From the NCBI RefSeq assembly GCF_025997995.1, contig NZ_AP026683.1, positions 1,426,501 through 1,490,500 on the forward strand: 64,000 bases of DNA, written 5' to 3'. The DNA is from Sediminibacterium sp. TEGAF015. Lineage in GTDB: Bacteria > Bacteroidota > Bacteroidia > Chitinophagales > Chitinophagaceae. A model generated the notes under the pieces. The model was given only the letters and a program-made list of their open reading frames with translations, ran no database searches and was not told where the DNA came from. Made by a program: the position numbers and the translations under genes. This document shows, piece after piece, positions 18,950-60,483 of this stretch. Positions within the stretch are counted from its first letter, which is position 1. Each line of letters begins with the position of its first letter.

Positions 18950-19051
18950 AATCGATTAGTTAAGGCTAAATTACTGAAGTTGATTAGTAATGCCAAAGAT
19001 GAGGAGGAGTTGCTGAGGGCTAAAGTGGAGTGAAGATGTTTGTTAGCAGTT
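18950..19051 (-). repeat. Decayed attC-like site at left end of the cassette array
   Basis: The interval carries a degraded version of the loop shared by the 157-bp sites (GATTAGTTAAGGCTAAATTA followed by CTGAAG) and ends GTTAGCAGTTG at 19042-19052. The last bases pair with ACTGCT before the site at 20299. The other end is no longer recognisable. No accepted gene lies in 18888-19059. Confidence 0.45.
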
Positions 19052-19059
19052 GAAATCCA

Positions 19060-19428
19060 TCAGTCTACAATGTAGTATGTCCAATGCTTATAACCCGCCT
19101 TAAGAAATTCTTCCTCCTCATTTTCGTCTTCATTAGGATTATAAGACACTAGTTCATAATTAAAGTTAAATAGCACTTCCTGCTTAAAAGTCAGTCGATA
19201 TGTACTATCAAGATTTTCGTATTGAAAACTTGGAATACCTATTATATGTGAACTAGGTATGGTTTTTACAAATTTGGGTTGAAGATTGATTAGACCTTGT
19301 GGGTATGCATTATAAGCTTTTCTGTAAGATTCAATAGCAACTACAATTTTATTTGCTTGCCCAATTGCAATATTGCGGCTAAAGCTTCGAATTTTGTAAC
19401 CCAAGAAGAGGCAAATTATAAGTGTCAT
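19060..19428 (-). CDS. Hypothetical single-helix protein
   Basis: This 122-residue protein has one N-terminal membrane helix (TLIICLFLGYKI). A helical stretch and AYPQGLINLQPKFV follow, recalling pseudopilin-like secreted proteins. The C-terminal part is acidic (PNEDENEEEEFLKAG). Its ATG overlaps the stop of the small gene upstream (ATGA). The pilin resemblance is weak; function unknown. Confidence 0.5.
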   Translation of the reverse strand: MTLIICLFLGYKIRSFSRNIAIGQANKIVVAIESYRKAYNAYPQGLINLQPKFVKTIPSSHIIGIPSFQYENLDSTYRLTFKQEVLFNFNYELVSYNPNEDENEEEEFLKAGYKHWTYYIVD

Positions 19429-19601
19429 AGAAATTGCAAAAGTAAAAAATGAACCCTGAAACTACTCAAAATCAGTGCTGTTGAATAAAAGACTTTTGCA
19501 AGTCCACTCAAATAAGAAGGGCCTGGCAAAAAAGGTGATAAAGCCAATAATGCTATTATTAGAAGTGTAATTATAAGTTGAGCAAACTTCTTATATGACA
19601 T
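19425..19601 (-). CDS. Small two-helix membrane protein (58 aa)
   Basis: Translating from the ATG at 19601 gives 58 residues with two hydrophobic segments (KFAQLIITLLIIALLALSPF and VFYSTALILSSF). Its stop overlaps the ATG of the next gene as ATGA, the best argument that it is real. The pair could be one gene split by a frameshift, since helix and pilin-like body are often joined. Confidence 0.45.
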   Translation of the reverse strand: MSYKKFAQLIITLLIIALLALSPFLPGPSYLSGLAKVFYSTALILSSFRVHFLLLQFL

Positions 19602-19614
19602 AGGCTAATTGGAA

Positions 19615-19640
19615 AGTGGTAGTTAACGTTCGTGGCTTTT
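19615..19640 (-). repeat. Half attC-like site remnant
   Basis: AACGTTCGTGGCTTT at 19625-19639 matches the left arm of the full sites, but no right arm follows before the next gene end. I read it as a truncated site. Confidence 0.4.
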
Positions 19641-19657
19641 TTCTTTTTCACCCAGAA

Positions 19658-20284
19658 TTAAACGTCTAAAAAGTCCTCTTTTTTTGTAAAATATTCTAAT
19701 CCTACAACCAAGATTAATGAACATATAGAGAATATTTTCTGCATTATAACTGTCAAACCCAAATAACCAAATCCGTATAGTGCAAAAAAACAGTAATAAG
19801 TTATAAGGCAAAAAACACAGCAAACTTTAAGAAAATGGAGTTTGGATTTTATTATATAAATAGAAATTGTAAACAAACCTAATAAAGTCAAAACAATGGA
19901 TATAGTCCCTATATCATGTAAGGGTGTTGCAATTAAAAAAATAAATACAATATTGATAACACCAATAAATTTCAAAATCTTTGCCCACAACTTTGAAGAA
20001 ATTTTATTGGCCATATTTATAAAGAAAGTTCCATAACCAATAGATTGGAAAGCCATGCCAATAATTGCCCAAATCCTTCCAGTGTTTTCAGAACCATTTA
20101 TTGCCTTAGGTGCAAACAAATGACTGAAAAAATTTCCTGACCAGTCAAAACCAATAGAATTTTTGTCAAATAATGACCCACCAGGATAATTGAAAGTTGC
20201 AACTATTATCAAAACCGCTGATGTAATGATGCATATCAAAACAAAATATTTCTTAATCAATTTTATAATTTTTAATAAATTCAT
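19658..20284 (-). CDS. Six-helix membrane protein, unknown
   Basis: This 208-residue protein starts at ATG 20284 (a TTG six bases earlier is possible). About six hydrophobic helices alternate with short loops; FNYPGGSLFD and FDWSGNFFSHLFAP lie between helices 1 and 2, the layout of DUF998-like membrane proteins. It occupies a unit bounded by sites at 20299 and about 19625. Function unknown. Confidence 0.55.
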   Translation of the reverse strand: MNLLKIIKLIKKYFVLICIITSAVLIIVATFNYPGGSLFDKNSIGFDWSGNFFSHLFAPKAINGSENTGRIWAIIGMAFQSIGYGTFFINMANKISSKLWAKILKFIGVINIVFIFLIATPLHDIGTISIVLTLLGLFTISIYIIKSKLHFLKVCCVFCLITYYCFFALYGFGYLGLTVIMQKIFSICSLILVVGLEYFTKKEDFLDV

Positions 20285-20298
20285 TTGCAATGACTGCT

Positions 20299-20455
20299 AA
20301 CGTTCGGGGCTTAGCACCGTTTGGATAATCTGTGTTAATACTGCTGGCTTGGCCACTAAATCCCCGATTAGCTAAAGCCAAATTACTGAAGTCCATTTGA
20401 AATACAAAAGCTGATGGGCCATTGCTGAACCTCCAACTGGCGTAAGCCTTTTGTA
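20299..20455 (-). repeat. attC-like site C (157 bp)
   Basis: It starts AACGTTCGGGGCTTAG and ends CGTAAGCCTTTTGTAAG, so the terminal GTT has decayed to GTA. The central loop GATTAGCTAAAGCCAAATTA is shared with the other 157-bp sites. Flanks no longer pair with the next site. A spurious open frame (20253-20528) crosses it. Confidence 0.65.
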
Positions 20456-20467
20456 AGCGGTAGTATT

Positions 20468-21872: not shown

Positions 21873-21904
21873 AATTATTTTGGTGTTCCGATATAATTGC
21901 CACT

Positions 21905-21966
21905 AACGTCTGTGGGTTTAGGCTGGTTGGATAATCTGTGTTACTCCTGGCGTAAAGCCTATTGTT
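21905..21966 (-). repeat. attC-like site E (62 bp, minimal)
   Basis: It begins AACGTCTGTGGGTTTAGGC and ends GGCGTAAAGCCTATTGTT. It has the same ends as the 157-bp sites with the middle missing, so it is an internal-deletion form. Its outer flanks no longer pair with the neighbours. Confidence 0.65.
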
Positions 21967-21976
21967 AGCAGTGGTT

Positions 21977-22556: not shown

Positions 22557-22593
22557 ACTTTTCAAATTTCTGAGGGGTTAAAAAATCAGAGCT

Positions 22594-22656
22594 AACGTCC
22601 GTGGCTTTACGCTGGTTGGATGATCTGTGTTCCTACTTGAGCAAATCCTTTTTGTT
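22594..22656 (-). repeat. attC-like site F (63 bp, minimal)
   Basis: It begins AACGTCCGTGGCTTTACGC and ends CAAATCCTTTTTGTT. It is a second short form with a degraded right arm. Its terminal TAAC (minus strand) supplies the stop codon of the HigA gene. Confidence 0.65.
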
Positions 22657-22954
22657 ATGCGGCTGTATTACTGTATCTGGATATTGAAGCTAACTGAGAT
22701 TTCAGTGAATGTTTCTTTTCTTCGATATCAAAGTCATCTTGCAAGCCCAGCCAAAACTTAGCTGAAGTCCCAAAATACTTTGAGAATCTTAGCGCAGTAT
22801 CCGCTGTAATTCTCCGATTGCCTTTTATGATCACAGAAATCCTTGTTTGTGGAATACCTGTATCCTTGCAGAGCCTGTACGCAGAAATACCAAGAGGAAT
22901 TAGAAATTCTTCTTGTAAAATTTCGCCTGGATGAATGTTCTTTAGAGGTTTCAT
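22655..22954 (-). CDS. higA: HigA-type XRE antitoxin
   Basis: This 99-residue addiction-module antidote has KNIHPGEILQEEFLIPLGIS, a helix-turn-helix with RISVIIKGNRRIT, and SKYFGTSAKFWLGLQ, diagnostic for HigA. The usual HigB toxin is not next to it; a 50-residue ORF precedes it instead. The stop codon lies inside the attC-like core, so the gene uses the recombination site to terminate translation. Confidence 0.87.
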   Translation of the reverse strand: MKPLKNIHPGEILQEEFLIPLGISAYRLCKDTGIPQTRISVIIKGNRRITADTALRFSKYFGTSAKFWLGLQDDFDIEEKKHSLKSQLASISRYSNTAA

Positions 22955-23380: not shown

Positions 23381-23414
23381 GTATTAAAGATATAAAACCA
23401 GATAAAAAAAGTCA

Positions 23415-23506
23415 GGCGTTTGTGGCCTTAAGCTGGATGGATAATCCGCATTCCTACTGCTGATTGTTCTAATGCAGTAATCCCAAATGGCGTAAAGCCA
23501 TTTGTT
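23415..23506 (-). repeat. attC-like site G (92 bp)
   Basis: The left core AACG has decayed to GGCG. The right end reads GGCGTAAAGCCATTTGTTAG. Middle is partly deleted relative to the 157-bp sites. Its terminal TAA (minus strand) is the stop codon of the Doc frame. Confidence 0.6.
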
Positions 23507-23887
23507 AGCCGCTTATTTTTACTTTATGATTAGCTAACCATTTTACTATAGTTTCAAAATTCGAGTATCCAGAAGCAATATCCATAACAAAGGAGTATTT
23601 CTCTTCTTGGCTTGCTACTATATCTAGTTTATTTTGTAATAAAAGCAGGCGCATTAAAACATAACCCGTTCGCTTATTGCCATCTACGAATGGGTGATTA
23701 ATAAGAATACTTTCGATTAATGAGGCAGCTTTATCTAAAGGGGTAGGGCAAAGTTCTTTCCCATCAAATGTTTGGAAAGGTCTGGCTAAAGCGGAGTTCA
23801 AAAAATCTTTGTCTCTGATTCCATTCGCGCCACCGAATTCCGAAATTAGAATTTGATGTATTTTTCAACTTCTTGTAATGAAATCAT
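23505..23887 (-). pseudogene. doc: Doc/Fic-family toxin with single-base frameshift
   Basis: The start MISLQEVEK at 23887 is in one frame. One base after a run of five A (~23860) would restore IHQILISEFGGANGIRDKDF, which continues into the main frame (NSALARPFQTFDG...). The main frame has the intact Fic motif HPFVDGNKRTGYVLMRLLLL. Doc phosphorylates EF-Tu. The homopolymer makes a sequencing error or slippage possible, but as written the toxin is split. Its ATG overlaps the antitoxin stop (ATGA). Confidence 0.75.
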
Positions 23888-24072: not shown

Positions 24073-24136
24073 CTTTTGTATCTTAAGCTATAAAGTTACA
24101 GATTTTCGTAGATAATTAAATTTTAAAATAGCTGCT

Positions 24137-24294
24137 AACGTCCGTGGCTTTACGCTGGTTGGATAATCTGTGTTACTAATGCTGGCTTGGCCACTATAGA
24201 CTCGATTAGCTAAAGCCAAATTACTGAAGTTCATTTGAAATATTAAAGTTGATGGGCCATTGCTAATAGCCCAACTGGCGTAAAGCCTTTTGTT
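24137..24294 (-). repeat. attC-like site H (158 bp)
   Basis: AACGTCCGTGGCTTTACGC ... GCGTAAAGCCTTTTGTT. Inner arms GGCTTTACGC/GCGTAAAGCC are exact complements; GTCCGT versus TTTT stays unpaired. The right flank GGTGGCAGTT pairs with the left flank of site I (AATTGCCACC). It fills the 24073-24309 gap. Confidence 0.78.
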
Positions 24295-24309
24295 GGTGGC
24301 AGTTATTTG

Positions 24310-25020: not shown

Positions 25021-25089
25021 AATTATTTAATGACTAATATACCACTAAATGTTTGTCATTGCTTACACTATTTGTTTATAATTGCCACC

Positions 25090-25280
25090 AACGAGCAGGC
25101 ATTGCCGATAGTGGGGTAATAGAATTTCGTCCGCCGGAGCTACTGCCCGGCTATTTTGATAAAGTTAAATATTAAGAACTAAAGCTGATCTTTATTCGTC
25201 TAGCCTCGAACCACAGCATAGCAGAATTGCCGCTGCTGATTGCTCCAATGTCTAGCCCCACTATTGGCAATACCAATGTT
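25090..25280 (-). repeat. attC-like site I (191 bp)
   Basis: AACGAGCAGGCATTGCCGATAG ... CTATTGGCAATACCAATGTT. Inner arms pair (ATTGCC with GGCAAT; TAGTGGGG with CCCCACTA). The right flank GTACGCC pairs exactly with GGCGTAC before site J. The gap 25021-25379 holds this site and no gene. Confidence 0.75.
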
Positions 25281-25379
25281 GTACGCCGTATTAGTCGGTC
25301 TAACCAAAAGCCTGTTGTTTGTTTTTGTCAAAGCTGCAATACAAGACGCCAATTAAAAATGCTGAATAACTTTATCCTT

Positions 25380-25847: not shown

Positions 25848-25993
25848 AGTTTTTTAAGTATTTAGTTTTCTAAGGTCGTGTTATAGTTTTTTACCGACCG
25901 ACAATATTATGTTAAAAGTGATCACTAATTTTCGTCAACACAAAAAGATAAGACTTGAAATATGGAAATGAGGGCTGTCAAAAAATGGCGTAC

Positions 25994-26182
25994 AACGTTC
26001 GAGGCTTGCCGCAGGGCTGTAATTGTTGCTGTGTCCGCCCGGTAACTGAAGCCAATTGAAAGACTAATGATGAAGTTAACAACTAAAAGCCAAATAGAAT
26101 TCGGTCAAGCCCGATATTAGCTGATAGTAGTACAACAACCGATTGTTATTCCGTCCGCCAGCCTTGCGGCAAACCTTTTGTT
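25994..26182 (-). repeat. attC-like site J (189 bp)
   Basis: AACGTTCGAGGCTTGCCGCA ... TTGCGGCAAACCTTTTGTT. Inner arms TTGCCGCA/TGCGGCAA pair. It is nearly identical to site T. The right flank GTAGGCAAT pairs with ATTGCCTAC before site K. The gap 25848-26193 holds this site and no gene. Confidence 0.78.
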
Positions 26183-26193
26183 GTAGGCAATAT

Positions 26194-26967: not shown

Positions 26968-26994
26968 ATAGAGTGGTCTGATAAAATTGCCTAC

Positions 26995-27151
26995 AACGTC
27001 CGTGGCTTTAGGCTGGTTGGATAATCAGTGTTCCTACTGCTGGCTTGGCCACTAAAGACTCGATTAGTTAAAGCCAAATTACTGAAGCCCAATTGAAACA
27101 CCAAAGCCGATGGGCCATTGCAGGTGTCCAACTAGCGTAAAGCCTTTTGTT
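26995..27151 (-). repeat. attC-like site K (157 bp)
   Basis: AACGTCCGTGGCTTTAGGC ... GCGTAAAGCCTTTTGTT. It has the shared loop of the 157-bp group. The right flank ATGGGCTGT pairs with ATAGCCCAT before site L, bracketing the HepT/MntA pair. Confidence 0.78.
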
Positions 27152-27165
27152 ATGGGCTGTGTAAG

Positions 27166-27501
27166 TTAGCCTTGAAGTTTAATTAACTGTTCAATCATTT
27201 TAGGAAGAAATGTCTCTTTTATTACCCAAACAATAGAATAATCTATTCCAAAATAGTCGTGAACAATTCTATTTCTGAAGCCTCGTATTTTATGCCAGTC
27301 AATTTCTGAATGCGTCTCCTTAAAATCTTCGGGTAATCTGTTAGCCGCTTCTCCTATGATTTCGAAATTTCTAATTACAGCATCTACTGTTTTTGAGTCA
27401 GCTGAAAATTGCTCCAGAGTCAAGCCATAAGTATAATCAAGGATTTTATGTCCACTATCAAGGATATCGTCAATTAGCAGGTCTGTAGATCTTTTAGACA
27501 T
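27166..27501 (-). CDS. hepT: HepT-type HEPN toxin (copy 1)
   Basis: This 111-residue DUF86/HEPN RNase-type toxin has the catalytic R-x4-H-x-Y motif in RNRIVHDYFG and upstream VDAVIRNFEIIGEAANRLP. HepT is controlled by MntA, which in studied systems adds AMP groups to it. It overlaps mntA by 8 nt, antitoxin first. Almost identical to the copy at 55165-55500 (differences such as TYGLT/TLDLT). Confidence 0.9.
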   Translation of the reverse strand: MSKRSTDLLIDDILDSGHKILDYTYGLTLEQFSADSKTVDAVIRNFEIIGEAANRLPEDFKETHSEIDWHKIRGFRNRIVHDYFGIDYSIVWVIKETFLPKMIEQLIKLQG

Positions 27502-27787
27502 AAATGATATCGGATTCTATGGCTTGAAAATACTTTTGCTTGATTCCGTTTCTCGATACAAGATCTATTTTTCTTTTAATCTTCTGTTCGAGGTAATCGG
27601 CCAAATCAATGAATTCAATTCCGATAGGCTTAGAAAAATCTACAATGATATCGATATCGCTTGTTGTTGGTGAAAAATCATTGCGCACCACTGATCCAAA
27701 AAGGCCAATAGAGCTGATAGAATACTTTTCCATTAGCTCTGGTTTGAGTCTAAGCAGCAAATCTTTTATGGATTCCAACTGTGTCAT
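27494..27787 (-). CDS. mntA: MntA-type nucleotidyltransferase antitoxin (copy 1)
   Basis: This 97-residue minimal nucleotidyltransferase has the GSx10DxD signature (GSVVRNDFSPTTSDIDIIVD). It pairs with HepT downstream. A TATCTTTG motif ten bases before the start (27793-27800) fits a Bacteroidota -7 element, so the unit may carry its own promoter. Copy 2 is at 55493-55786. Confidence 0.9.
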   Translation of the reverse strand: MTQLESIKDLLLRLKPELMEKYSISSIGLFGSVVRNDFSPTTSDIDIIVDFSKPIGIEFIDLADYLEQKIKRKIDLVSRNGIKQKYFQAIESDIIYV

Positions 27788-27792
27788 ACTTC

Positions 27793-27800
27793 AAAGATAC
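27793..27800 (-). promoter_or_regulatory. Candidate -7 element of the mntA-hepT unit
   Basis: TATCTTTG matches TAnnTTTG just before mntA. No clear TTG lies 19-21 bp further upstream, so the promoter call is weak. The same motif precedes copy 2. Confidence 0.3.
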
Positions 27801-27824
27801 GAAACCTTATAATAAATAGCCCAT

Positions 27825-28013
27825 AACGGACAGGGCTTGCTGCTGTGCTGGTATTCATTGAACGTCCAGCCCGGAACCCCTGATGATTGCAAATATGTAG
27901 TTGAAGTTAACAACTAAAAGCCAAATAGAATTACGTCGGCTGGAACTGGTGCTGATAGCGAACAAAAAGATGAGGATATGTTCGTCCGCCAGTATAGCAG
28001 CAAACCCCCTGTT
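27825..28013 (-). repeat. attC-like site L (189 bp)
   Basis: AACGGACAGGGCTTGCTGC ... GCAGCAAACCCCCTGTT. Inner arms TTGCTGCT/AGCAGCAA pair. The right flank GTACGTTCGCC is repeated after site M; its first six bases pair with ACGTAC before site M, bracketing the nrd block. Several spurious frames cross it. Confidence 0.75.
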
Positions 28014-28100
28014 GTACGTTCGCCCTTTTCTCTGTCCAGTAGTAGAGTGTTGCATTTTAACTGTGTCAACCTAAAGACTGTTACCCAAGCCGAGCAAGAA

Positions 28101-28164
28101 GGCAAGCTCTTTGGCAGGTTGGCTTCTGTGCTGTGGGTTTTGTGTGCCTGCCAATGTGCTTGCC
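28101..28164. repeat. Covarying palindrome PB1
   Basis: GGCAAGC-TCTTT-GGCAGG ... CCTGCC-AATGT-GCTTGCC: two stems separated by an unpaired TCTTT/AATGT loop, apex rich in TTGGC and TTGTG. Between site L and the thioesterase gene. The remaining bases of 28014-28221 show nothing else clear. Confidence 0.7.
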
Positions 28165-28221
28165 TTGCGGCGTTGGCTATTGGAGACTTCGCTTATTGTC
28201 CTTTTGTCATTGTGTGTTTGG

Positions 28222-28605
28222 TCAATTGATTTTCGTTGGCTTTTTATTGTCGTCAATAGCAACAAATGTAAACTCTCCGCTTACTGCTTTTTGTCTGTCG
28301 TTAGAATACATCTGTTCAACAAAAATATCAACTCTTACTTTTAAGCTCGTATTGCCGGTATAAGATACTTTACCAACCAACTCTATTATAGTTCCTGCAG
28401 GTATGGGCATTTTAAAATCTATTCTGTCGCTGCTAACAGTTACCATTTTTTGTCTGCTGTAACGGGTTGCAGTTATAAAAGCCACTTCATCCATCAAGTG
28501 CATTGCTGTCCCACCAAATAAAGTGTCATAATGATTTGTACTGTCGGGAAATACAGCTTTAAATATTCTTGTGATTGATTTTTCAATTTTTTCTTCGTTC
28601 ATCAT
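28222..28605 (-). CDS. Acyl-CoA thioesterase (YciA/hotdog family)
   Basis: This 127-residue hotdog-fold protein has TLFGGTAMHLMDEVAFITATR with the conserved Gly-Gly and Asp of the YciA/BACH group. VSSDRIDFKMPIPAGTIIEL follows. It hydrolyses acyl-CoA; chain preference is not readable. Last gene of the nrd block; it abuts the PAS gene directly. Confidence 0.88.
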   Translation of the reverse strand: MMNEEKIEKSITRIFKAVFPDSTNHYDTLFGGTAMHLMDEVAFITATRYSRQKMVTVSSDRIDFKMPIPAGTIIELVGKVSYTGNTSLKVRVDIFVEQMYSNDRQKAVSGEFTFVAIDDNKKPTKIN

Positions 28606-29067
28606 TTATGCAACATTTTCAATTGCAATGAAGTTTACTAAATTCCCTTTTTTGTTGAAGACAGGATAACCTTCAATTTGGCATTTGTAAATACTCCCGT
28701 CTTTTTTATAATTTGTAATGATACTTTTAAATGGGTTTTGTTTATCAACCGCTATTTTAATTTTTTCTCTTTCTATAATTTCAGTTTTAGCACCTTGAAA
28801 CATTGTGGGCTTTTTGTGAATTACATCCTCCTGTCTGTAACCATTCATGGCAAATATATTTTCAGTAGCATGAATGATATTGAGTTTCGTATCCGTAATA
28901 ATAATCACTTTGTTTTCCCAAACCAATGTATTGTCAAGAGAAACGAGGGGTTTATGCCAGTTACCTGCATTCATTATACTTTGCATTATTCTCAAGTCAT
29001 TGGCTAATTGCATTCTTCTGTGCAATCCTTCTAAACATATATCCCAGCATAAAAGTGGATGTGCCAT
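28606..29067 (-). CDS. Single PAS-domain protein (LOV-like, no reactive Cys)
   Basis: This 153-residue protein is a short helical N-terminus plus one PAS domain (~50-150): IITDTKLNIIHATENIFAMN, GYRQEDVIHKKPTMFQG, and the PAC part KKDGSIYKCQIEGYPV. The spacing resembles LOV domains, but the flavin-binding NCRFLQ position reads PTMFQG, so it lacks the adduct Cys. No output domain follows; it may act through a partner. Why it lies in the nrd operon is unclear. Confidence 0.75.
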   Translation of the reverse strand: MAHPLLCWDICLEGLHRRMQLANDLRIMQSIMNAGNWHKPLVSLDNTLVWENKVIIITDTKLNIIHATENIFAMNGYRQEDVIHKKPTMFQGAKTEIIEREKIKIAVDKQNPFKSIITNYKKDGSIYKCQIEGYPVFNKKGNLVNFIAIENVA

Positions 29068-29078
29068 AGTTATTAGTT

Positions 29079-29522
29079 TTAATCAGTTCGTTTCATCCTT
29101 GAAAATGGATAACCATTACATCCTTTACGGGGGTTAATCCTATCTGCCGTTGCTGTATTCATTGCTTCCTCCATAGTACTTGCTTTATATGTAGTAAGGC
29201 AATAACCCCAATGCCAGGGTTTCATGTTTTCAAAATACATTATGTCTATCCTTGTGTACAGCCCACCGTCCGAAGGATTAGCTTCATCATTCTTTGCAAT
29301 AAAAAAATTTTCAGCCTTGTTGTACTGTAACAAGTGATACTTTATGCTTTTACCTTGCACCCATTCTTTGTTTGTAATAATATAGCTGCTTCCGTAATCA
29401 TCTTTAAAGTTTCCAAGTAAGGCAGATGGCATCTGCTTTAATGTTTGCTGGCTAATTTTGGCAGTCGTATGACAAGCCGATACCAATAGCCAAAAAGCAA
29501 CTATGAGATTTCTTATTTTCAC
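29079..29522 (-). CDS. Lipoprotein hypothetical
   Basis: This 147-residue protein has a lipobox (FWLLVSACH). The mature part has YGSSYIITNKEWVQG and MKPWHWGYCLTTY; two further Cys could pair. It is 9 nt downstream of nrdA on the same strand, inside the block. No family recognised. Confidence 0.55.
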   Translation of the reverse strand: MKIRNLIVAFWLLVSACHTTAKISQQTLKQMPSALLGNFKDDYGSSYIITNKEWVQGKSIKYHLLQYNKAENFFIAKNDEANPSDGGLYTRIDIMYFENMKPWHWGYCLTTYKASTMEEAMNTATADRINPRKGCNGYPFSRMKRTD

Positions 29523-29531
29523 TTGCTTATT

Positions 29532-31931
29532 TTACGAACCACAACTAATACAACCATCTTCCATATTGCAACTTGGGGCATCAGTTTGCGTTGGCTCCAC
29601 ATCATTATTTATTTGTGGTTGTTGATTTACTATTTCTGTTGATGGAACTACAGGGCTTATTTCATTGCTACCTTGCTTTTCTACTGTAAATTGAACAGCT
29701 TGTGTGGCGGCTTGTGTACGCAAATAATACATGCCAGTTTTTAAACCTTTCTTCCATGCGTAAAAGTGCATAGAAGTAAGTTTAGAAGTATTTGGGTTGT
29801 CAACAAATAAATTCAACGATTGGGATTGACAAATGTATGCCCCTCTGTCAGCTGCCATATCAATAATATTGCGTTGTTTTATTTCCCAAACTGTTTTGTA
29901 TAATTCTTTTATGTCGGTTGGTATTTCTGCAATGTTTTGGATAGAACCATTGGCAGCAATAATTTTATTTTTCATACTGTTATTCCACAATCCTAAATTC
30001 ACTAAGTCTTTTAAGAGATGTTTATTTACGATTATAAATTCACCGCTTAAAACCCTTCTTGTATAAATATTGCTTGTATACGGCTCAAAACATTCGTTGT
30101 TGCCAAATATTTGTGACGTAGAAGCAGTAGGCATAGGCGCTAATAAAAGCGAATTACGTACTCCGTATTGTTTTACCTCTTCTTTTAGCAAAGCCCAATC
30201 CCAACAGTCAGTTGGTGTTACACCCCACATATCAAATTGAAAAATACCTTTTGAAACTGGCGAATCTACAAAGGTTTCATAAGCACCTTGTTCTTTTGCC
30301 AAATCTTTACTGGCTGTCATTGCCGCAAAGTAGATGGTTTCAAAAATATTTTTATTTAACAGTTTTGCCAACTCACTTTCGAATGGCAAACGCAATAAAA
30401 TAAATACATCTGCTAAGCCCTGCACACCCAAACCAATTGGGCGGTGCTTCATATTGGAAGTTCTTGCCTCTTCTATTGGGTAGTAATTATTGTCAATTAT
30501 TTTGTTGAGGTTTTTTGTTACTTGATAAGTTACTTCATATAGTTTTTGCTGGTCAAACTTTCCATCAATAACAAAACGGGGTAATGCCAATGAAGCTAAA
30601 TTACAAACTGCCACTTCATCAGGGCTGGTATATTCCATTATTTCAGTACAAAGATTACTGCTTTTAATTGTGCCTAGATTTTGCTGATTACTTTTACTGT
30701 TTGCAGCATCTTTATATAACATGTAGGGTGTACCTGTTTCAATTTGTGATTGTAAAATCGCAAACCACAAATCCTGTGCTTTCACTGTTTTTCTTGCTTT
30801 GCCTTCAGCTTCATATTTAACGTAAAGCGTTTCAAATTCTTTACCCCAACACTCACTTAACCCCGGTGCCTCATTGGGGCAAAACAAACTCCAATCACCA
30901 TTTGCTTCCACCCGTTTCATAAACAAATCGCAAATCCATAAAGCAAAAAATAAATCTCTTGCCCTCATTTCTTCTTTACCATGATTTTTTCTTAAATCTA
31001 AAAACTCAAATACATCACTATGCCATGGCTCTAAGTAAATAGCAAAAGCACCTTTGCGTTTTCCGCCACCTTGGTCAACATATCTGGCAGTATCATTAAA
31101 TACACGGAGCATTGGAATAATGCCGTTGCTTGTTCCATTTGTGCCGCCAATATAACTGCCTGTGGCTCTGATATTGTGAATGGCTAAACCAATACCACCA
31201 GCACTTTGAGAAATTTTTGCTGTTTGTTTTAGTGTGTCGTAAATGCCGTCAATGCTATCTTCTTTCATTGTTAAAAGAAAACATGAACTCATTTGAGGTT
31301 TAGGAGAACCTGCATTAAACAATGTTGGTGTGGCATGTGTCATCCATCGTTCACTCATTAAGTGATATGTTTTTATGGCACTCTCAATATCTTCTTTGTG
31401 TATGCCTATTGCAACTCTCATATACATGTGTTGCGGACGTTCTGCAATTTTTCCATCAACTTTTAGCAGGTACGATTTTTCCAAAGTTTTAAAACCAAAA
31501 TAGTCAAAACCAAAATCTCTGTCGTAAATAATGGTGCTGTCCAGTAACTCTGCATGTTCTTCAATTATCTGCATCACATCATCTGCTATTAGTGGTAATT
31601 TTTTTCCTGTTGCAGCATCTGTATAATTATAAAGCCTTTGCATTGTTGCAGAAAAACTTTTAATGGTATTCTTATGCAGGTTGCTTACTGCAATTCTTGA
31701 CGCAAGTATTGCATAGTCGGGATGTGTGATAGTAAGCGATGCTGCTGTTTCTGCTGCAAGGTTGTCCAGCTCTGTTGTCGGCACGCCTGCATAAATACCT
31801 TCAATGGTTTTCTTTGCAACATCAATTACATTCACCATTGGGCTTAAACTGTAACTTAATTTTTCAATTCTTGCGGTTACTTTGTCAAATTTTACAGATT
31901 CCTGCTTACCGTTTCTTTTTATTACAAACAT
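29532..31931 (-). CDS. nrdA: Ribonucleotide reductase class I, large subunit
   Basis: Reduces ribonucleoside diphosphates to deoxy forms with NrdB. At 799 residues it has normal length. An N-terminal ATP-cone (~1-90) is followed by the catalytic barrel with [42 protein letters not shown] and [15 protein letters not shown] (active-site Cys). The C-terminal CISCGS is the shuttling dithiol. The gene lies 25 nt after nrdB and is controlled with it by the upstream cobalamin riboswitch. Confidence 0.96.
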
Positions 31932-31956
31932 GGGTGTAGTATATATTTAATGTTGT

Positions 31957-32928
31957 TCAAAAATCTTCTTCAGTTGAAAATACTTGAGTTTCTTTATTAC
32001 CCATTACTCCAGCTTTTTGATAATCGCCAACTCTTTTTTCAAAAAAATTTGTTTTGCCTTGCAATGAAATCATTTCCATAAAGTCAAATGGATTGGTGGC
32101 GTTGTAAATTTTTGTACAACCTAATTCACTTAGCCAACGGTCTGCAACAAACTCAATGTATTGTTGCATCAATTTAGCGTTCATACCAATTAAATCAACA
32201 GGTAATGCTTCAGTAATAAATTCCTTTTCTATTGTTACAGCATCGGCAATAATATCCTGGACTTTTTTTTCTGACAATTTGTTTTGCAGCATACTATAAA
32301 GTAGACAAGCAAACTCACAATGTAAACCTTCATCACGGCTTATTAATTCATTACTGAACGTAAGCCCCGGCATTAAGCCTCTTTTTTTCATCCAGAAAAT
32401 AGAACAGAAACTGCCGCTAAAAAATATTCCTTCTACTGCTGCAAATGCAACAAGGCGTTCAGCAAAATTTCCATTGTCAATCCAACGCAAAGCCCATTCT
32501 GCTTTTTTCTTTACTGCTGGTACAGTGTCAATAGCATGAAATAGTTTATGTTTTTCTTGTGGGTCTTTGATGTAAGTGTCAATAAGCAAAGCGTAGGTTT
32601 CGCTGTGTATATTTTCCATCATTATCTGAAAACCATAAAAGCATCTGGCTTCGGGTAATTGCACTTCACTCATAAAGTTTACCGCAAGATTTTCATTTAC
32701 GATGCCATCACTTGCAGCAAAAAAGGCTAACACATGAGAGATAAAATGGCGTTCTCCATCATTTAGTGCAGCCCAATCTTTTAAGTCGCCACTTAAATCA
32801 ATTTCTTCGGCTGTCCAAAAGCTGGCTTCATGTCTTTTGTATTGTTCCCAAATTTTTGGGTAATTAATTGGCAGGATAACAAAGCGGTCTTTATTTTCTT
32901 TTAAAAGTATTTCTTCTGTATGTACCAT
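31957..32928 (-). CDS. nrdB: Ribonucleotide reductase class I, small subunit (eukaryote-like R2)
   Basis: I start at MVHTEEILL (32928). It supplies the di-iron/tyrosyl radical to NrdA. Iron ligands and radical Tyr are in place: [30 protein letters not shown] (Tyr in CFYGF), [10 protein letters not shown] and [10 protein letters not shown]. The sequence is strikingly like eukaryotic R2, as known for Bacteroidota. 323 residues. A 130-nt leader with a cobalamin riboswitch precedes it. Confidence 0.96.
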
Positions 32929-33044
32929 AATCAATATTTGTTTCAAAAATTTTTAGCTACAGGAGAAAAATATAGTGCTGAAAGAATGAGCCGCATGAAG
33001 CAGCGAAGACTGTCAGTACCATGCCTTTCACCCGAAAGCGTTGT

Positions 33045-33225
33045 TACTAAATGTTTGATTCTGGCAGGTCTTCTGACTTGCTCCATTGTTTAAAGCCTTC
33101 CCGTCCAAAATGACAGTGGCATGGGGATTAAACAACTTTGGTGGAGCTTACAGCTACGGGGATAGTTCAAGACTTAAACTTGATTCCCTTTTAATGAAAT
33201 CCGCTTGTGGCGAATTGTCAACCAA
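33045..33225 (-). ncRNA. Cobalamin riboswitch in the nrdBA leader
   Basis: On the minus strand the conserved elements appear in order: GGGAATCAAG, CCCCGTAGCTGTAA, GCCACTGTC, GACGGGAAGG and the B12 box AAGTCAGAAGACCTGCC. A hairpin-forming segment (CTTTCGGGTGAAAG) follows before nrdB. These are the core of AdoCbl riboswitches. It should lower nrdBA expression when B12 is present, which makes sense where a B12-dependent class II reductase exists elsewhere (known logic, not shown here). Confidence 0.93.
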
Positions 33226-33394
33226 AATGTGGTGTAAAATAATAACCTAAATTTAAAATTGGGGCAAGTTGTTATACACTTTATGTTGAAAACATTGGAA
33301 AGTCGCAATGGGAGGATGTTGTAAAATATTGTGGGTTGCTGATGGTAGTAATTTTTTCATATTTAAGGAGATGCCGATAAGAATTCAGTCCGCT

Positions 33395-33415
33395 GGGTGG
33401 TGGGTGGGCATGGGG
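33395..33415 (+). other. G-quadruplex motif
   Basis: Four runs of at least three G with short loops on the plus strand (GGGTGGTGGGTGGGCATGGGG has loops TGGT, T and CAT). Stands out in an AT-rich genome; sits upstream of the nrd leader beside palindrome PB2. Confidence 0.55.
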
Positions 33416-49045: not shown

Positions 49046-49120
49046 ATGAAGCGTTGGGGCTTTGTCTGTCTGTTTACTGCTGGTTTTCTCTCAGTGGTGT
49101 CGTCTTTTAGGGTGAGGCAT

Positions 49121-49244
49121 AACGTTTTGCAGCTACCCGAAGGGCGGGACTTTTACCACAAAACTTGATTTGAAAAACTAATGTTTGATTAACCACAAAA
49201 CTGTCTTTGGAACACGAAACCCCGCCTTTTGGGTAGGTGCTGTT
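49121..49244 (-). repeat. attC-like site R (124 bp)
   Basis: AACGTTTTGCAGCTACCCGAAG ... GGGTAGGTGCTGTT. Arms CTACCCGAAGGCGGG/CCCGCCTTTTGGGTAG pair with small bulges. The right flank ATGCCCAGTGC pairs over 11 bases (one G.T) with GCATTGGGCAT before site S. Confidence 0.78.
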
Positions 49245-49266
49245 ATGCCCAGTGCTTTCTTTCGGT

Positions 49267-51036
49267 TTATGCAAACATTGCAATTTGTCCATTGTTTATA
49301 GGTGTCATTTCGTTGATAAAGTTGTCCCACAAGTTCAATGTCAAATTGAGTTTATACTTTTCGTTCAGCATTTCAAGTTCTGATTGCAGTTGTGTCTTGT
49401 TAATTTGTTTTGCTAATTTTAAAAGGTCAATTCTCATTAGAACGTCCTTTGTAAAAGTCCTTTTAGCGTCTGGAAAAGTTACAGATTGTAAAAACTGAAC
49501 TGTCGTGTCGGAGTTTAAAAGAATTAAAGCATAAACCGCAAATTCTATTTTGTCAAAACCTATTAAATAACAAGTGTCGTCAAGCATTACGGGCTTATTG
49601 TCCTGTGGCAGAATTAGCGTAAAATGAAAGGTCTTGTAAAGTCCTGATATGGCAACTTTGAAAGGTTTGAAGGAATAGTCGCCAATACCAAATATTGAAA
49701 ACAAAGGTTTGTTGTTGTAGATACTTGATTTTCTTGCATCAAAATTTGCTTGATGCTGTGTCAAGTATTGATATGTTTTAGGATATTCAGTTTTGATATA
49801 TTTGGTTTCCTGTCCAACTTTCTTTTGCGTAACAATCGTAAACTTTCGTGTCTGATTTATTACAGTATTTTTAAGGTCTGAACTTTTGAGAATACCGTAA
49901 ACTAAACCGTCTTCCAATTTTACTTCTTCATTTAACCCATTTACATAATGTCCATTTACTTTATCCAATTCCATAACTGTTGAACAGTCGTGTTTTAAAC
50001 CTTGTCGCCAAACAAAAGGACATTCACCGTCAATCTCTTTCGTGTGCATGTAAGTGTCAATGTTTGAAACAAATTTATCATTAAGCCAACCGAATTCAAG
50101 TTGAGATGTTTGATTGTTGTAAAAATCAAATTCCGTGCAATCAAATGTAGGAAGTGAGTTTAACTTACAATAGAATAAAGACGCTTCAACGGAAACATTA
50201 AATTCTTTTTTGCTGTCAATGCAATGTTTTTCAATAGTTGAAATCTTGTATCGGTTTTTACTTTGGTCAAAGACGATGTTTTTGATAACAGAATTTTTTA
50301 CCAATAACAATAAATTCCCTTTCATATTTTGAAAGGTTTCAATCATAGTCAATGTAATAAATTCAGCAATGTCAAAATTCCCTTTTCCTGTCATTGCGTC
50401 TAAACCACTATGATTTTTGAAATTCGTTTTTTTAGGAAGATTTGTTGAATTTAAACTACCCAATTTTGAATTGGTTACCCAAGGTGGATTACCAATTACT
50501 AAAATATCATTTGTAGAATGCTCCTTTGCTATCGTTTTGAAGTCGAAGTCGAAAACATTACAATGAACTATCGAAATTTTTGGCTTGTGTGATTTTGGAT
50601 TAGAAAGAAAGAAATCTACAATGCTGAATTTAGTTTCCCAAACGTAAGGTTTATAAATTTCAACCCCGAATACATTTTTTATGTTTTTGAAATTGCGTAG
50701 AGAAGCAATAATAAAATTCCCTTTTCCGCAGGTTGGCTCAATAACAACTTCAGGTGAAATGTTTTTTGAAGCCAAGTGTAATGTAACTTTATTAGCTAAA
50801 TCTGAATTGGTTTGAAAGTCGCCATATTCTGCTCTGTCGGGTTCTTCAACAATATTATTAGTAATTGAAAGAACTTCTTTAAGCGTTTCTAATTCTTCAT
50901 CATTATCAAAAAAATGTATGATGCCGAAGGCATCATACATTTTTTGATTTGCCTTTTCAAAAGACGTAATCTTTTTCAGATTGTCATTTAAGAAATCAGA
51001 AACTTGATGAGTAATATTTGCTTCAAATACTTTCAT
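49267..51036 (-). CDS. DNA N6-adenine methyltransferase of a restriction-modification pair
   Basis: This 589-residue SAM-dependent enzyme has motif I VIEPTCGKGNFIIASL, motif IV GNPPWVTNSKLG (NPPW, amino-methyltransferase) and FGVEIYKPYVW. The C-terminal half (~330-589) is probably target recognition. The start codon abuts the stop of the nuclease gene upstream. Sequence specificity is not readable. Confidence 0.85.
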   Translation of the reverse strand: MKVFEANITHQVSDFLNDNLKKITSFEKANQKMYDAFGIIHFFDNDEELETLKEVLSITNNIVEEPDRAEYGDFQTNSDLANKVTLHLASKNISPEVVIEPTCGKGNFIIASLRNFKNIKNVFGVEIYKPYVWETKFSIVDFFLSNPKSHKPKISIVHCNVFDFDFKTIAKEHSTNDILVIGNPPWVTNSKLGSLNSTNLPKKTNFKNHSGLDAMTGKGNFDIAEFITLTMIETFQNMKGNLLLLVKNSVIKNIVFDQSKNRYKISTIEKHCIDSKKEFNVSVEASLFYCKLNSLPTFDCTEFDFYNNQTSQLEFGWLNDKFVSNIDTYMHTKEIDGECPFVWRQGLKHDCSTVMELDKVNGHYVNGLNEEVKLEDGLVYGILKSSDLKNTVINQTRKFTIVTQKKVGQETKYIKTEYPKTYQYLTQHQANFDARKSSIYNNKPLFSIFGIGDYSFKPFKVAISGLYKTFHFTLILPQDNKPVMLDDTCYLIGFDKIEFAVYALILLNSDTTVQFLQSVTFPDAKRTFTKDVLMRIDLLKLAKQINKTQLQSELEMLNEKYKLNLTLNLWDNFINEMTPINNGQIAMFA

Positions 51037-51735
51037 TTACTGTTCAGTAACTTTATGAATGATATTATGTACACCGTCAAGATTATTTAATGGTTTCGTT
51101 TTTCCTTCTCGATTTGGACAAATCCAACTATATGAAAGTCTCCACTGCAATGCATTAGAAATCGTCAAGCAACCATTTTGAATTTCAGTTTCAAGAATTT
51201 GTTTTGCTAATAGTTCTTTAGTTGAATCATCTGCTGGCAAATTTATTCCTGTCAGAAACGCCACTATATCATCAGTACTACTTCCGACTCTTTTCATATC
51301 ATTTATAATTCGAGTTGTTGAATAATCGCCCGTGAATTTCGCAGGAACAAAGGAACAACTAACAAAATCTAGAATAGAAGTTTGGTTTTGTGAATCGTCT
51401 TTTTTATCGTAAACAAAAACCAATAGATTATAACCTAATCCGAATATTTTTTGCTTAGCATCTTTATATGGACAAGATGATTGGGGTTTGTTTATGGATG
51501 TTACCTTTATGTCTGTGAGTATATTTTCAGATGGAAGGTCAATTCCACTGGCAGATGAACCAACAATTGTGTCATACACAGCAAGTAAATGGTCTTTGAA
51601 TTTATGTTCGACATGGGTTCCAACTTTTTTACCGTCAGTTACTCCATAAAGTTCCGTATTTTGAACAGTTGATTCACTTTTACAAAACTTTTGAGCTTCC
51701 TCAATTAACTTTTCTATTGTTAAATTTTGCTTCAT
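51037..51735 (-). CDS. Candidate type II restriction endonuclease
   Basis: This 232-residue protein is followed directly by the methyltransferase gene. GSSASGIDLPSENILTDIKV fits a PD-(D/E)XK core (Asp, then D-I-K), and GYNLLVFVYDKKDD is the following strand. WRLSYSWICPNREGKTKPLN near the end is typical of R-M nucleases. Identified by motif and partner; family not named. Confidence 0.72.
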   Translation of the reverse strand: MKQNLTIEKLIEEAQKFCKSESTVQNTELYGVTDGKKVGTHVEHKFKDHLLAVYDTIVGSSASGIDLPSENILTDIKVTSINKPQSSCPYKDAKQKIFGLGYNLLVFVYDKKDDSQNQTSILDFVSCSFVPAKFTGDYSTTRIINDMKRVGSSTDDIVAFLTGINLPADDSTKELLAKQILETEIQNGCLTISNALQWRLSYSWICPNREGKTKPLNNLDGVHNIIHKVTEQ

Positions 51736-51873
51736 TTATGTTTTAAAGTATTTGTGGCTAAGTTAATATTTTTAAAGGTTAAAATCGTCTCATTTGGTCG
51801 TGAAGTTTTACACAAAAGTTTGATGTCAAGCTGCAATGTTCGTCTGTTGCACTGTCGTCATAGCATTGGGCAT

Positions 51874-52052
51874 AACGAGCAGGGCTTTATGCAGGTTGGG
51901 AATTAGAATTCCGTCCGCCCATAACCACTGCTGATTGAAAATATGAAATTAAGTATAAAAGCTGATAGTTATTCGTCTGCTGGAACTCAAGCTGGGATTA
52001 GCGAATAGCTGATGATACAAGGTCAAGCCCAACTTGCATAAAACCCAATGTT
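51874..52052 (-). repeat. attC-like site S (179 bp)
   Basis: AACGAGCAGGGCTTTATGCAGG ... TTGCATAAAACCCAATGTT. Arms TTTATGCA/TGCATAAA pair. The right flank GCCTGTA pairs with TACAGGC before site T. No gene in 51736-52075. Confidence 0.75.
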
Positions 52053-52075
52053 GCCTGTAGTGCTATCAATTACTT

Positions 52076-53452: not shown

Positions 53453-53490
53453 TTTGATAAAGTTGGAGTGTCTCTGAAAGTATTACAGGC

Positions 53491-53679
53491 AACGTTCGAG
53501 GCTTGCCGCAGGGCTGGAATTGTTGCTGTGTCTGCCCGGCAACTGAAGCCGATTAAAAAACTGATGTTGAAGTTAACAACTAAAAGCCAAATAGAATTCG
53601 TTCAAGCCCAATATTAGCTGATAGTAGTACAACTGTCGATTGTTATTCCGTCCGCCAGCCTTGCGGCAAACCTTTTGTT
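53491..53679 (-). repeat. attC-like site T (189 bp)
   Basis: AACGTTCGAGGCTTGCCGCA ... TTGCGGCAAACCTTTTGTT. Near-identical to site J. The right flank ACATGCAATGC pairs over 11 bases without mismatch with GCATTGCATGT before site U. Confidence 0.8.
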
Positions 53680-53695
53680 ACATGCAATGCTATCA

Positions 53696-54934: not shown

Positions 54935-54992
54935 CGTTGGTTGAACTAAAAGTCATCTTTATATGGGTGAACTCTGTCAAAGCATTGCATGT

Positions 54993-55150
54993 AACGTACA
55001 GGGCTTTACGCAGGGTGGGGAAGGATAATTCCCGCTGCTGGCTTGGCCACTAAAAACTCGATTAGCTAAAGCCAAATTACTGAAGTTGATTTGAAATACC
55101 TAAGCTGATGGGCCATTGCTGAAAGCCCAACTTGCGTAAAGCCTTTTGTT
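54993..55150 (-). repeat. attC-like site U (158 bp)
   Basis: AACGTACAGGGCTTTACGCAGG ... GCGTAAAGCCTTTTGTT. Left part differs from site K, right part is the same. The right flank ATGGGCTGTGTA pairs over 12 bases (one G.T) with TACATAGCCCAT before site V. Confidence 0.8.
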
Positions 55151-55164
55151 ATGGGCTGTGTAAG

Positions 55165-55786: not shown

Positions 55787-55823
55787 ACTTCAAAGATACG
55801 AAACCTGATAATACATAGCCCAT

Positions 55824-55947
55824 AACGGTTTGCGGCTTTGCGATGTTGGGAAAATCAAAGGACAAATGCTCAATTTAGTACAAATGTTCAATAGAATTCC
55901 AATGCTCAAATTTAGTACTTCAGCCCCAATATCGCAAAACCGATGTT
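55824..55947 (-). repeat. attC-like site V (124 bp)
   Basis: AACGGTTTGCGGCTTTGCGATG ... ATCGCAAAACCGATGTT. Arms TTTGCGAT/ATCGCAAA and TTGGG/CCCAA pair. The right flank AGCTGCTGTTT pairs over 11 bases (one G.T) with AAATAGCAGCT before site W. Confidence 0.78.
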
Positions 55948-55956
55948 AGCTGCTGT

Positions 55957-58799: not shown

Positions 58800-58815
58800 T
58801 ATTAAAAAAATATTG

Positions 58816-59640
58816 CTACAGATTATTTCTAAAATTTATTGGGCTAATACTTTCTTGTTTTTTAAAAAAACGACTAAAGGTTTGTACATCTTCAAAACCC
58901 AAATCATAGGCTATTTCTTTAATAGTTTTATCAGTATAGCGTAGCATACGTCTGGCTTCTAACATTTTTCTATCTTGAATAATTTGTAATGGCGATCGGT
59001 CGGAAAGTTTTGCAAATAAGTTAGAAAGCGTTTTGGGCGATTTATTGAGCATATCGGCATAGTCATGTACGGTATGTTTGGTTTTGAAATAAATTTCTAC
59101 CAAGTAATTATATTCTCTTACTATGTCTGTTTCTTTAGTATTGAGTTCTGAAAAACTGTTTTGCTTTTTATAAATTCTCGTACATAAAATAATAAATCTT
59201 TTCAGCATAGATTGTAGCATTTCTAATTGCATATCATCTTTTGATTGCATTTCTATTTCAAACATTTTCCATAGTACTTCAAATTTTTCTAACTCGTTGG
59301 TGGGAATTTGAAAAGTGGGCAATTCTTTCGCTCCATAAAACAATATTCCTTTACAGCTAACTTCTCTGTCATGGTCAAGTATGCAGTAAAACTCTCGGTT
59401 AAATTTTATGCTTCTCAATTCACTACAATGTCGAATATCTATATTGTAAAAATCGGTCAGGCAAATAATGGTGTTCTTTTTAAATTTTATTTCATTTCCC
59501 TCATAGTAAATAATAGATTTCTCATCCTTTGTCCACAAAAAAGTCAAAGGTGAGTTTATATCTTTGTCATAAGTTATTTGAGTACTTCGTTTTAAAGTAC
59601 TTAAAAAAAATAGTTCGTTATGTTGTCCTATGAATATCAT
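58816..59640 (-). CDS. AraC-family regulator
   Basis: This 274-residue protein has a cupin-like N-domain and a C-terminal AraC double HTH (TVHDYADMLNKSPKTLSNLF and KTIKEIAYDLGFEDVQTFSR, FFKKQESISPINFR). First gene of the V-W block; it probably controls the oxidative repair genes that follow. Confidence 0.92.
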   Translation of the reverse strand: MIFIGQHNELFFLSTLKRSTQITYDKDINSPLTFLWTKDEKSIIYYEGNEIKFKKNTIICLTDFYNIDIRHCSELRSIKFNREFYCILDHDREVSCKGILFYGAKELPTFQIPTNELEKFEVLWKMFEIEMQSKDDMQLEMLQSMLKRFIILCTRIYKKQNSFSELNTKETDIVREYNYLVEIYFKTKHTVHDYADMLNKSPKTLSNLFAKLSDRSPLQIIQDRKMLEARRMLRYTDKTIKEIAYDLGFEDVQTFSRFFKKQESISPINFRNNL

Positions 59641-59669
59641 AAATTTAGGGTTGTTCTTAAATAGCAGCT

Positions 59670-59853
59670 AACGTGCGGAGCTTGCCGAAGGTGTGGTATT
59701 AGAATTGTGTCCGCCCGAACGTCTGCTGATAAATTTGATTAGTTGAAAGTTAATACTAAAGCCCAATATAGTTGTGTCTGCCCGAACCAATGACCGGCTT
59801 TGTACTTAGTTGATGTTTGTTTGTCCAGCCACACTTTTGGCAAACTACTTGTT
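59670..59853 (-). repeat. attC-like site W (184 bp)
   Basis: AACGTGCGGAGCTTGCCGAAGG ... TTGGCAAACTACTTGTT. Arms TTGCCGAAGGTGTGG/CCACACTTTTGGCAA pair. The right flank AGCGGCAGATT pairs over 11 bases (one G.T) with AATTTGCCGCT before site X. Confidence 0.78.
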
Positions 59854-59871
59854 AGCGGCAGATTGCTATAA

Positions 59872-60312
59872 CTAGGACTTTTTATTTATTTTGGTCAACT
59901 CTTGTATTTTTAATTTCAACTTTTCGTTTTCCATTTTTACACTTTTTACTTCTTGTTTTAAGGTTTCATACTCAAGAAATGTATCAAAAGTTGGAAATTT
60001 TCTTGCAAGATTTAAATCATTTGTTAAGCTTTGGAGTACAATTGAAAGTTCTCCACCTCGAGTGATAATGTCAAAGTATTTCTCTGATTTTTTATCGAAT
60101 ATTTCGATTTCACTTTTTAATAACCTTTTATTGAATTTTGTAATTACAAAGTCATTTATGATAAGAGGCATTGATTTGTTAAAGTTTGGCAAGAATTTTA
60201 TTTCCCCATTTAAAACAGAGTATACATTATATTTTCCAAGAGACGAAAATATTTCTCTCTTTGATTCCGTTTCTCTTGTTTTTCCACCATTTTCGTAAAT
60301 CGCATAATACAT
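59872..60312 (-). CDS. Hypothetical protein with C-terminal coiled coil
   Basis: I start at MYYAIYENGGKTRET (60312); an in-frame start 33 bases earlier is possible. 146 residues: beta-rich first two thirds (VYSVLNGEIKFLPNF), then LEYETLKQEVKSVKMENEKL, a clear coiled coil. No family recognised. Sole gene of the W-X unit, with long flanks pairing on both sides. Confidence 0.55.
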   Translation of the reverse strand: MYYAIYENGGKTRETESKREIFSSLGKYNVYSVLNGEIKFLPNFNKSMPLIINDFVITKFNKRLLKSEIEIFDKKSEKYFDIITRGGELSIVLQSLTNDLNLARKFPTFDTFLEYETLKQEVKSVKMENEKLKLKIQELTKINKKS

Positions 60313-60358
60313 ATTGTAATATTTTAGCTTACTAATGTCTGCCAATAAATTTGCCGCT

Positions 60359-60483
60359 AACGTTTTTCGGCTTGGCGTAGTGGCGGATTTTTAGCACAAA
60401 AGTTCAACCGAAGAACTACACTTGAACCTACCACAAAACTGTCATACGAAGCACTGCACCCGCCATTACGCCAAACCGCTGTT
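60359..60483 (-). repeat. attC-like site X (125 bp)
   Basis: AACGTTTTTCGGCTTGGCGTAG ... ATTACGCCAAACCGCTGTT. Arms TTGGCGTA/TACGCCAA and GGCGG/CCGCC pair. Rightmost site; the right flank GTTGACAGCTGG has no partner inside the window. Confidence 0.78.

Follow-up and report, generated by a model that had tools for sequence, protein, structure and literature searches.

Does the chromosome of Sediminibacterium sp. TEGAF015 carry an integron whose integrase is missing? The question is raised by a stretch of 64,000 nucleotides (hereafter the window; C1:1426501-1490500, where C1 is the single contig, NZ_AP026683.1, of this 3,055,665-base genome), for which the original prediction described an integron-like cassette array without integrase. 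It was found that the array continues past the window to a tyrosine recombinase with its own attI-like site. With high confidence, the locus can be regarded as an integron-like gene-capture platform composed of an Xer-type recombinase free of the IntI insertion (I2), an attI-like entry site, 25 cassette units, and 30 attC-like sites, with exchange at a GTT. Because this recombinase has its own attI and is not IntI, the locus can be classed neither as a classical integron nor as an orphan attC cluster (CALIN).

The site array, the recombinase and attI

A region of 119 kb was scanned for pairs of YAAC and CGTTR with complementary inner arms at a score of at least 16. The minus strand gave 27 candidates and the plus strand two, while three Markov shuffles gave five, three, and three. 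Two of the 27 (1476685 and 1483310) were discarded due to unsuited arms and ends. The remaining 25 strong sites, of which 17 lie within the window (24136-60484) and eight past its end, fall into length classes of 122-124, 155-156, and 177-192 nt from YAAC to GTT, and the mean column identity of one class is 89%. Two covariance models, R1 (16 sites, 126 positions) and R2 (13 sites, 160 positions), were built from sites of the host and of other genomes, and 150 first-look candidates were scored per model in a whole-genome scan. The models added five degraded sites at the low-coordinate end of the array (18945-23507), the end distal to the recombinase. The total is 30 sites, 22 in the window and eight beyond it, all on the minus strand; at least 21 had been predicted between 18950 and 60483, and the limits agree. 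At E <=0.001 in the whole genome, R1 and R2 match 26 of the 30, each of them on the minus strand and inside C1:1445445-1505991, and no match to either model was found outside the array in the 3.06-Mb genome at this threshold. A site consists of YAAC, a short spacer, two arms facing each other, a longer spacer, and CGTTR, so that the attC-like layout with unequal unpaired spacers had been described correctly. The genes between the sites are co-directional, again as predicted: the 25 units have 60 non-overlapping ATG open reading frames (ORFs) of at least 60 amino acids on the minus strand and none on the plus strand.

What lies at the other end of the array? The last site ends at C1:1505991 and is followed by one unit and then by a gene for a 384-residue Xer-type tyrosine recombinase on the minus strand (C1:1509020-1510171, or 82520-83671 when the numbering of the window is continued). 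The statement that no tyrosine recombinase is present holds for the window and fails 18.5 kb past its end. The enzyme is not IntI, and the IntI insertion (I2) is missing. Its TIGR02249 (IntI) score is 170.7 bits, below the cut-off of 265, and its alignment to IntI4 (2a3v) skips IntI4 residues 208-250. The spacing from the Lys motif to HxLRH is 64 residues, compared with 69 and 73 in XerC/D; it is 64-68 in 28 of 33 measurable rows of the recombinase family and 107 in 14 of 20 measurable IntI rows. The cut-offs of XerC (176.7 of 335.15 bits) and XerD (168.2 of 329.6 bits) are not reached either, and in the tree the recombinase stands well apart from the host's own XerC/D-like proteins, on a separate branch with a support of 100/99. 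The core resembles XerA and IntI4 alike, and the C-terminus is of the SPLD type, as in IntI4. An extra N-terminal domain (residues 1-83) is present, and its model most resembles the damage-recognition domain of the XPB helicase. Named relatives include a protein of a Sediminibacterium sp. metagenome-assembled genome (71% identity), proteins of other Chitinophagaceae, and those on two "Sphingobacteriia bacterium" contigs (71 and 80% identity).

The attI-like site, AACGCGTACTTTTAAGT|GTTAGTGGC, lies about 130 nt behind the stop codon of the recombinase gene, between this gene and the first unit (82386-82517 in continued numbering, with the crossover GTT at 82386-82388). The first cassette is joined there; its R′ sequence GTTAGTGGCA pairs with CTGCCACTAAC of the first site, which is the unit's own site. 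The attI motif was found behind the recombinase gene in seven relatives or named contigs (G060, G034, G026, G020, G042, L072, and L076), with one change in G034 and an altered left part in G020. Wherever the contig continues, the sequence past the attI GTT differs among these relatives. L072 ends exactly at the attI GTT and G042 two bases after it, which would fit an assembler stopping where several continuations exist. Further copies of the motif occur upstream at −125 and −103 in the host genome, G060, and L072, and an inverted copy at −75 in G060 and L072. Over the seven loci there are 18 extra copies at threshold, some of them overlapping, while mononucleotide shuffles gave a mean of 3.9 and a maximum of 10. 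Accessory repeats occur at classical attI sites, and the additional copies resemble them.

Cassette ends, exchange and cargo

Are the units really cassettes? The 5′ and 3′ ends of an integron cassette derive from one circle. Thus, the R′ that opens a unit is expected to pair with the R″ that closes it, rather than with the R″ of the site in which it lies. In the host array, own-unit pairing sums to 235 matched bp over 24 units, compared with 103 within the same site; 20,000 permutations gave a mean of 98.6 and a maximum of 139. The contiguous complementarity is 9-15 bp in 23 of the 24 units. Matches of at least 8 bp were also seen in 25 of 34 consecutive pairs from other genomes (permutation mean 1.5, maximum 7). 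End complementarity is the mark of circularisable cassettes.

Are cassettes exchanged? Two contigs, L073 (Candidatus Kapaibacterium) and L074 (Ignavibacteria UBA2373), share 98.96% identity over 11.3 kb including the recombinase gene, and 1000 of 1000 nt are identical up to the attI GTT. The sequence at the attI position of these two contigs differs from the host motif and ends in GTTAGC. After attI, L073 has one site, and L074 has four, one of which is a weak scan match (score 22). Both then resume the same next unit from the GTT, with 189 of 189 nt identical, while the preceding 60 nt match at 27 positions. Cassettes have been exchanged exactly at the GTT between these near-identical relatives. 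A contig of Aquirufa rosea (L076) matches the host genome over 487 nt at 99.6%, ending at attI, and a different cassette follows. Although the attI regions are almost identical, the two hosts presumably belong to different orders. In Aquirufa rosea, the gene for the recombinase, a member of the same family, is truncated at L076:3333-4985 by an inserted element with ORFs, which I take to be IS3-like. In G020, the chromosomal flank behind the recombinase gene is 79% identical to that of the host over 2.9 kb, and the first cassette differs.

These findings also suggest how the platform would work. It is likely that the recombinase inserts, excises, and shuffles cassettes, with the GTT of each site as the point of exchange. 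I infer that the host recombinase, rather than another enzyme, moves the cassettes, because attI lies behind its own gene and because, in relatives, the arrays begin at members of this family and are read in the direction leading away from them. The entry point of new cassettes would be attI, and the decayed sites are found at the far end of the array.

In the window, all sites are on the minus strand. At the distal end lie the degraded sites 18945..19021 (R2 34.6 bits, partial match to positions 25-134), 20298..20456 (156-nt class with a mutated R″, 162.6 bits), 21904..21967 and 22593..22657 (both with the middle part deleted, 32.8 and 35.7 bits), and 23414..23507 (41.3 bits). The arm scan, the end complementarity, and R2 support the sites of the 156 class at 24136..24295, 26994..27152, 39993..40152, 40723..40882, and 54992..55151, while those of the 187 class at 25089..25281, 25993..26183, 27824..28014, 33565..33760, 51873..52053, 53490..53680, and 59669..59854 are supported by the arm scan and the end complementarity. 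Sites of the 122 class were matched by R1 at 41849..41974 (110 bits), 44708..44835 (108.1 bits), 49120..49245 (122.4 bits), 55823..55948 (101.5 bits), and 60358..60484 (124.1 bits), the last being the final site inside the window. The eight sites beyond it, found in the arm scan, extend to 79491 in continued numbering.

The cargo includes toxin-antitoxin, restriction-modification, and metabolic genes. A cassette with a HepT-like gene and an MNT nucleotidyltransferase gene (27155..27822, minus strand; PF01934 and PF01909) occurs in a second copy (55154-55821); the shared block of 845 bp, about one unit, has 92.3% identity, and its borders lie no more than about a dozen bases from the unit ends. 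A type II restriction-modification cassette lies on the minus strand at 49267..51735 (PADLOC MTase_II and REase_II), and other units carry a PemK-type toxin accompanied by a small partner ORF, MsrAB (two units), and a peroxidase. Fourteen of the 25 units are shorter than 1 kb and four exceed 4 kb, the largest being 5.5, 6.2, and 11.6 kb. The 5.5-kb cassette-like unit (28017..33563, minus strand), whose ends match over 9 bp, encodes the large and small subunits of ribonucleotide reductase downstream of a cobalamin riboswitch, together with three ORFs. A core enzyme such as ribonucleotide reductase is unusual as cassette cargo. The 11.6-kb cassette-like unit, also on the minus strand, runs between two attC-like sites from 60487 past the window end at 64000 to 72083 in continued numbering and has four Druantia-like genes (PADLOC matches to DruM, DruK, DruE, and DruF/DruL). 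Within a unit of seven ORFs, an AAA ATPase (46331-47056) matches the IetA models of a defence system. In the part of PMC8352920 that describes its attC survey, the inter-site distance was capped at 4 kb, twice the largest annotated cassette; the four units over 4 kb would break this limit.

Distribution, folding and rival explanations

Is this platform common in Bacteroidia? Sites were found by R1 (E 0.001) in 206 of 295 Bacteroidia genomes (about 70%), and a relative of the recombinase at E 1e-45 in 145; both are present in 134 genomes, and neither in 78. Thus, sites occur in 134 of 145 recombinase-positive and in 72 of 150 recombinase-negative genomes (Fisher p 9e-18). In the 72 site-only genomes, the platform may have decayed, or its recombinase may be a more distant one. 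Among the matches listed, 33 site rows lie on the same contig within 65 kb of a recombinase, and every one of them reads away from it; 25 are co-directional with the recombinase, a layout shared by 17 of 19 recombinase loci, the other two being divergent as in classical integrons. In a second sample, up to 20 kb was fetched on each side of 20 of the 29 recombinase loci listed for other genomes. Sites were found at 12 of the 20 by scan or model, co-directional in five (G774, G132, G786, G709, and G895) and divergent in seven (G766, G740, G728, G869, G882, G902, and G706), and 44 of 46 model matches read away from the recombinase, one of the other two being the shadow of a match on the opposite strand. 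Both layouts are common within one broad recombinase family, and the constant feature is the reading direction away from the recombinase.

Does the cassette site fold on one strand? In the alignment of 16 sites, 262 of 304 cells of the L stem are Watson-Crick pairs, and most positions have several pair types, which indicates that the stems are kept by compensatory changes. The R stem is mostly paired up to position 15 and is lost at position 16, where 2 of 24 are paired. A fixed A.C mismatch is found at R position 11 in 17 of 24 sites and at one L-stem position in 15 of 16; on the strand opposite the genes these mismatches become G.T wobbles. When the free-cassette site was rebuilt from each unit's own ends and folded with DNA parameters, the strand opposite the genes folded better in 20 of 24 sites, by an average of 2.6 kcal/mol. 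Strand-specific folding of the cassette site is therefore likely, as far as predicted folds can tell. With somewhat less certainty, because the stems are compensated and this strand is the more stable one in 20 of 24 free-cassette sites, the cassette site may be used as a folded single strand, the one opposite the genes, as in integrons. It can be conjectured that recognition of the folded site, the task of the IntI-specific helix in integrons, falls here to the N-terminal domain (1-83).

Several observations weigh against such a platform. Besides the 72 site-only genomes, there are 11 with the recombinase at E 1e-45 and no R1 site. One R1 match (L178) reads towards its recombinase. Eight of the 20 loci in the second sample have no sites; seven of these have at most 1.05 kb on one side, and the other, G731, has no site by scan and model in flanks of 20 and 6.3 kb. 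In the first survey, sites were found at only 13 of 32 loci (5/12, 3/6, and 5/14), although this survey was less even, with one contig counted twice and most siteless loci short or fetched on one side; no sites were found at G086, where each side has about 20 kb or more, or on the 3′ side of G091 over 39 kb and of G068:C19 over 19 kb. The attI motif was found solely in the recombinase clade of the host and in L076; of the 24 loci listed, 16 are without it or end too early. The 11.6-kb unit (60487-72083) is the exception to end complementarity, with 4 contiguous bp (13/18 overall). Within the array, just 16 of 25 sites fold better on the strand opposite the genes, and once the fixed column is set aside, A.C outnumbers G.T in the L stem only slightly (11 vs 7).

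Could the sites be static intergenic repeats or small transposons of the REP/MITE type that separate co-directional genes by chance? The length classes, one of them with its high column identity, are what repeat families would show. However, complementarity joins the ends of each gene unit and not those of each repeat, whole units have been exchanged at the GTT between near-identical genomes, and neither model has a match elsewhere in the genome; this explanation can practically be dismissed. A static repeat would also keep the same order of sites and genes in all relatives, whereas homologous platforms hold different first cassettes, and the integron-like cassette array of the original prediction is borne out by end complementarity, attI, and exact exchange. 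It might be that the array is a CALIN whose cassettes are, or were, moved by a classical IntI located elsewhere, the nearby recombinase being unrelated. The sites do share the attC plan; in the phylum sample of 395 genomes, 105 have a classical IntI above the TIGR02249 cut-off, and three weak R1 matches (31.5, 26.8, and 24.9 bits) lie in 380 kb around ten IntI genes. The same 380 kb has no site at score 28 (highest 27), and at E 1e-60 TIGR02249 finds nothing in the host genome. Since, moreover, the attI motif follows host-type recombinases in relatives, whose arrays start at this family and read away from it, a CALIN is very unlikely.

A closer competitor accepts the same platform and recombinase and departs from the preferred explanation solely in the form of DNA used: the sites would be double-stranded or cruciform, recombined by the ordinary two-strand Xer pathway, and the palindrome would merely present paired arms. 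The recombinase is free of I2, a segment that parts of PMC7790495 tie to single-strand recombination, and its core is as close to XerA as to IntI4. In contrast, a double-stranded core site would need neither unequal unpaired spacers nor compensated long stems nor fixed strand-specific mismatches, and the gene-opposite strand folds better in 20 of 24 free-cassette sites. I regard this pathway as unlikely, though far less so than a CALIN.

Comparison with integrons

How far does the platform of Sediminibacterium resemble an integron with IntI (TIGR02249)? It shares a recombinase, an attI with accessory repeats, and a one-way array that reads away from them, as well as palindromic attC-type sites with YAAC/GTTR ends, unequal spacers, and covarying stems, complementary cassette ends, exchange at GTT, and decayed distal sites. 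In contrast, the recombinase lacks the insertion (64-68 residues in its family vs 107) and has the extra N-terminal domain, the host array lies behind the 3′ end of the recombinase gene and is co-directional with it, the units reach 5.5, 6.2, and 11.6 kb, and the R stem is 15 bp long. The consensus of the seven-base integron core box is RYYYAAC/GTTRRRY, and none of 24 R′ boxes fits GTTRRRY. The host array is like a CALIN in having no IntI nearby and unlike one in having a recombinase with its own attI; unlike XerA, XerC, and XerD (NF040815, TIGR02224, and TIGR02225), this recombinase is linked to attI and cassettes and carries the N-terminal domain.

Bacteroidota, or the Bacteroidetes/Chlorobi group, have been listed among the carriers of integrons or intI (PMC8618304, PMC2426708). 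According to parts of PMC9024848, an IntegronFinder survey, complete integrons are few in Bacteroidetes, where only In0 elements had been known before a complete one in Salinibacter ruber, while complete integrons were already known in Chlorobi and Ignavibacteriae. Structures that look like attC sites were also noticed close to classical IntI genes in other Bacteroidota (L126:16624-16748, and G347:C2 near 574870). As to the enzyme, the IntI-specific domain is treated as a defining trait in the work on archaeal integrons (PMC9668308), and passages of PMC7790495 (eLife 2020) describe I2 as necessary for cassette capture and present in no other protein, and single-strand recombination as unique to IntI. 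Sections of PMC8138268 define an integron-like subgroup of simple tyrosine recombinases in which the insertion is incompletely conserved. Its members without the insertion may be of the same kind as the host recombinase; the passages concerned report no arrays or attI for them. Searches of open-access papers, a scope outside which preprints and most subscription papers lie, listed no account of a comparable system, and an earlier description may exist.

A bolder reading is that Bacteroidota possess a second, I2-free integron system, that integrons arose more than once, that the N-terminal domain resembling a damage-recognition domain reads single-stranded cassette hairpins in place of the IntI helix, and that operon-sized cassettes extend up to entire defence systems such as Druantia. 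I give this reading, taken as a whole, slightly less than an even chance. If it is true, a working integron plan without I2 would make the necessity of I2 directly testable and would raise the question of two origins of integrons. It would also explain why complete integrons are scarce in Bacteroidetes, as parts of PMC9024848 report, despite the sites in 206 of 295 Bacteroidia genomes. A large hidden pool of cassettes, including restriction-modification and Druantia-like systems, would then exist in these bacteria.

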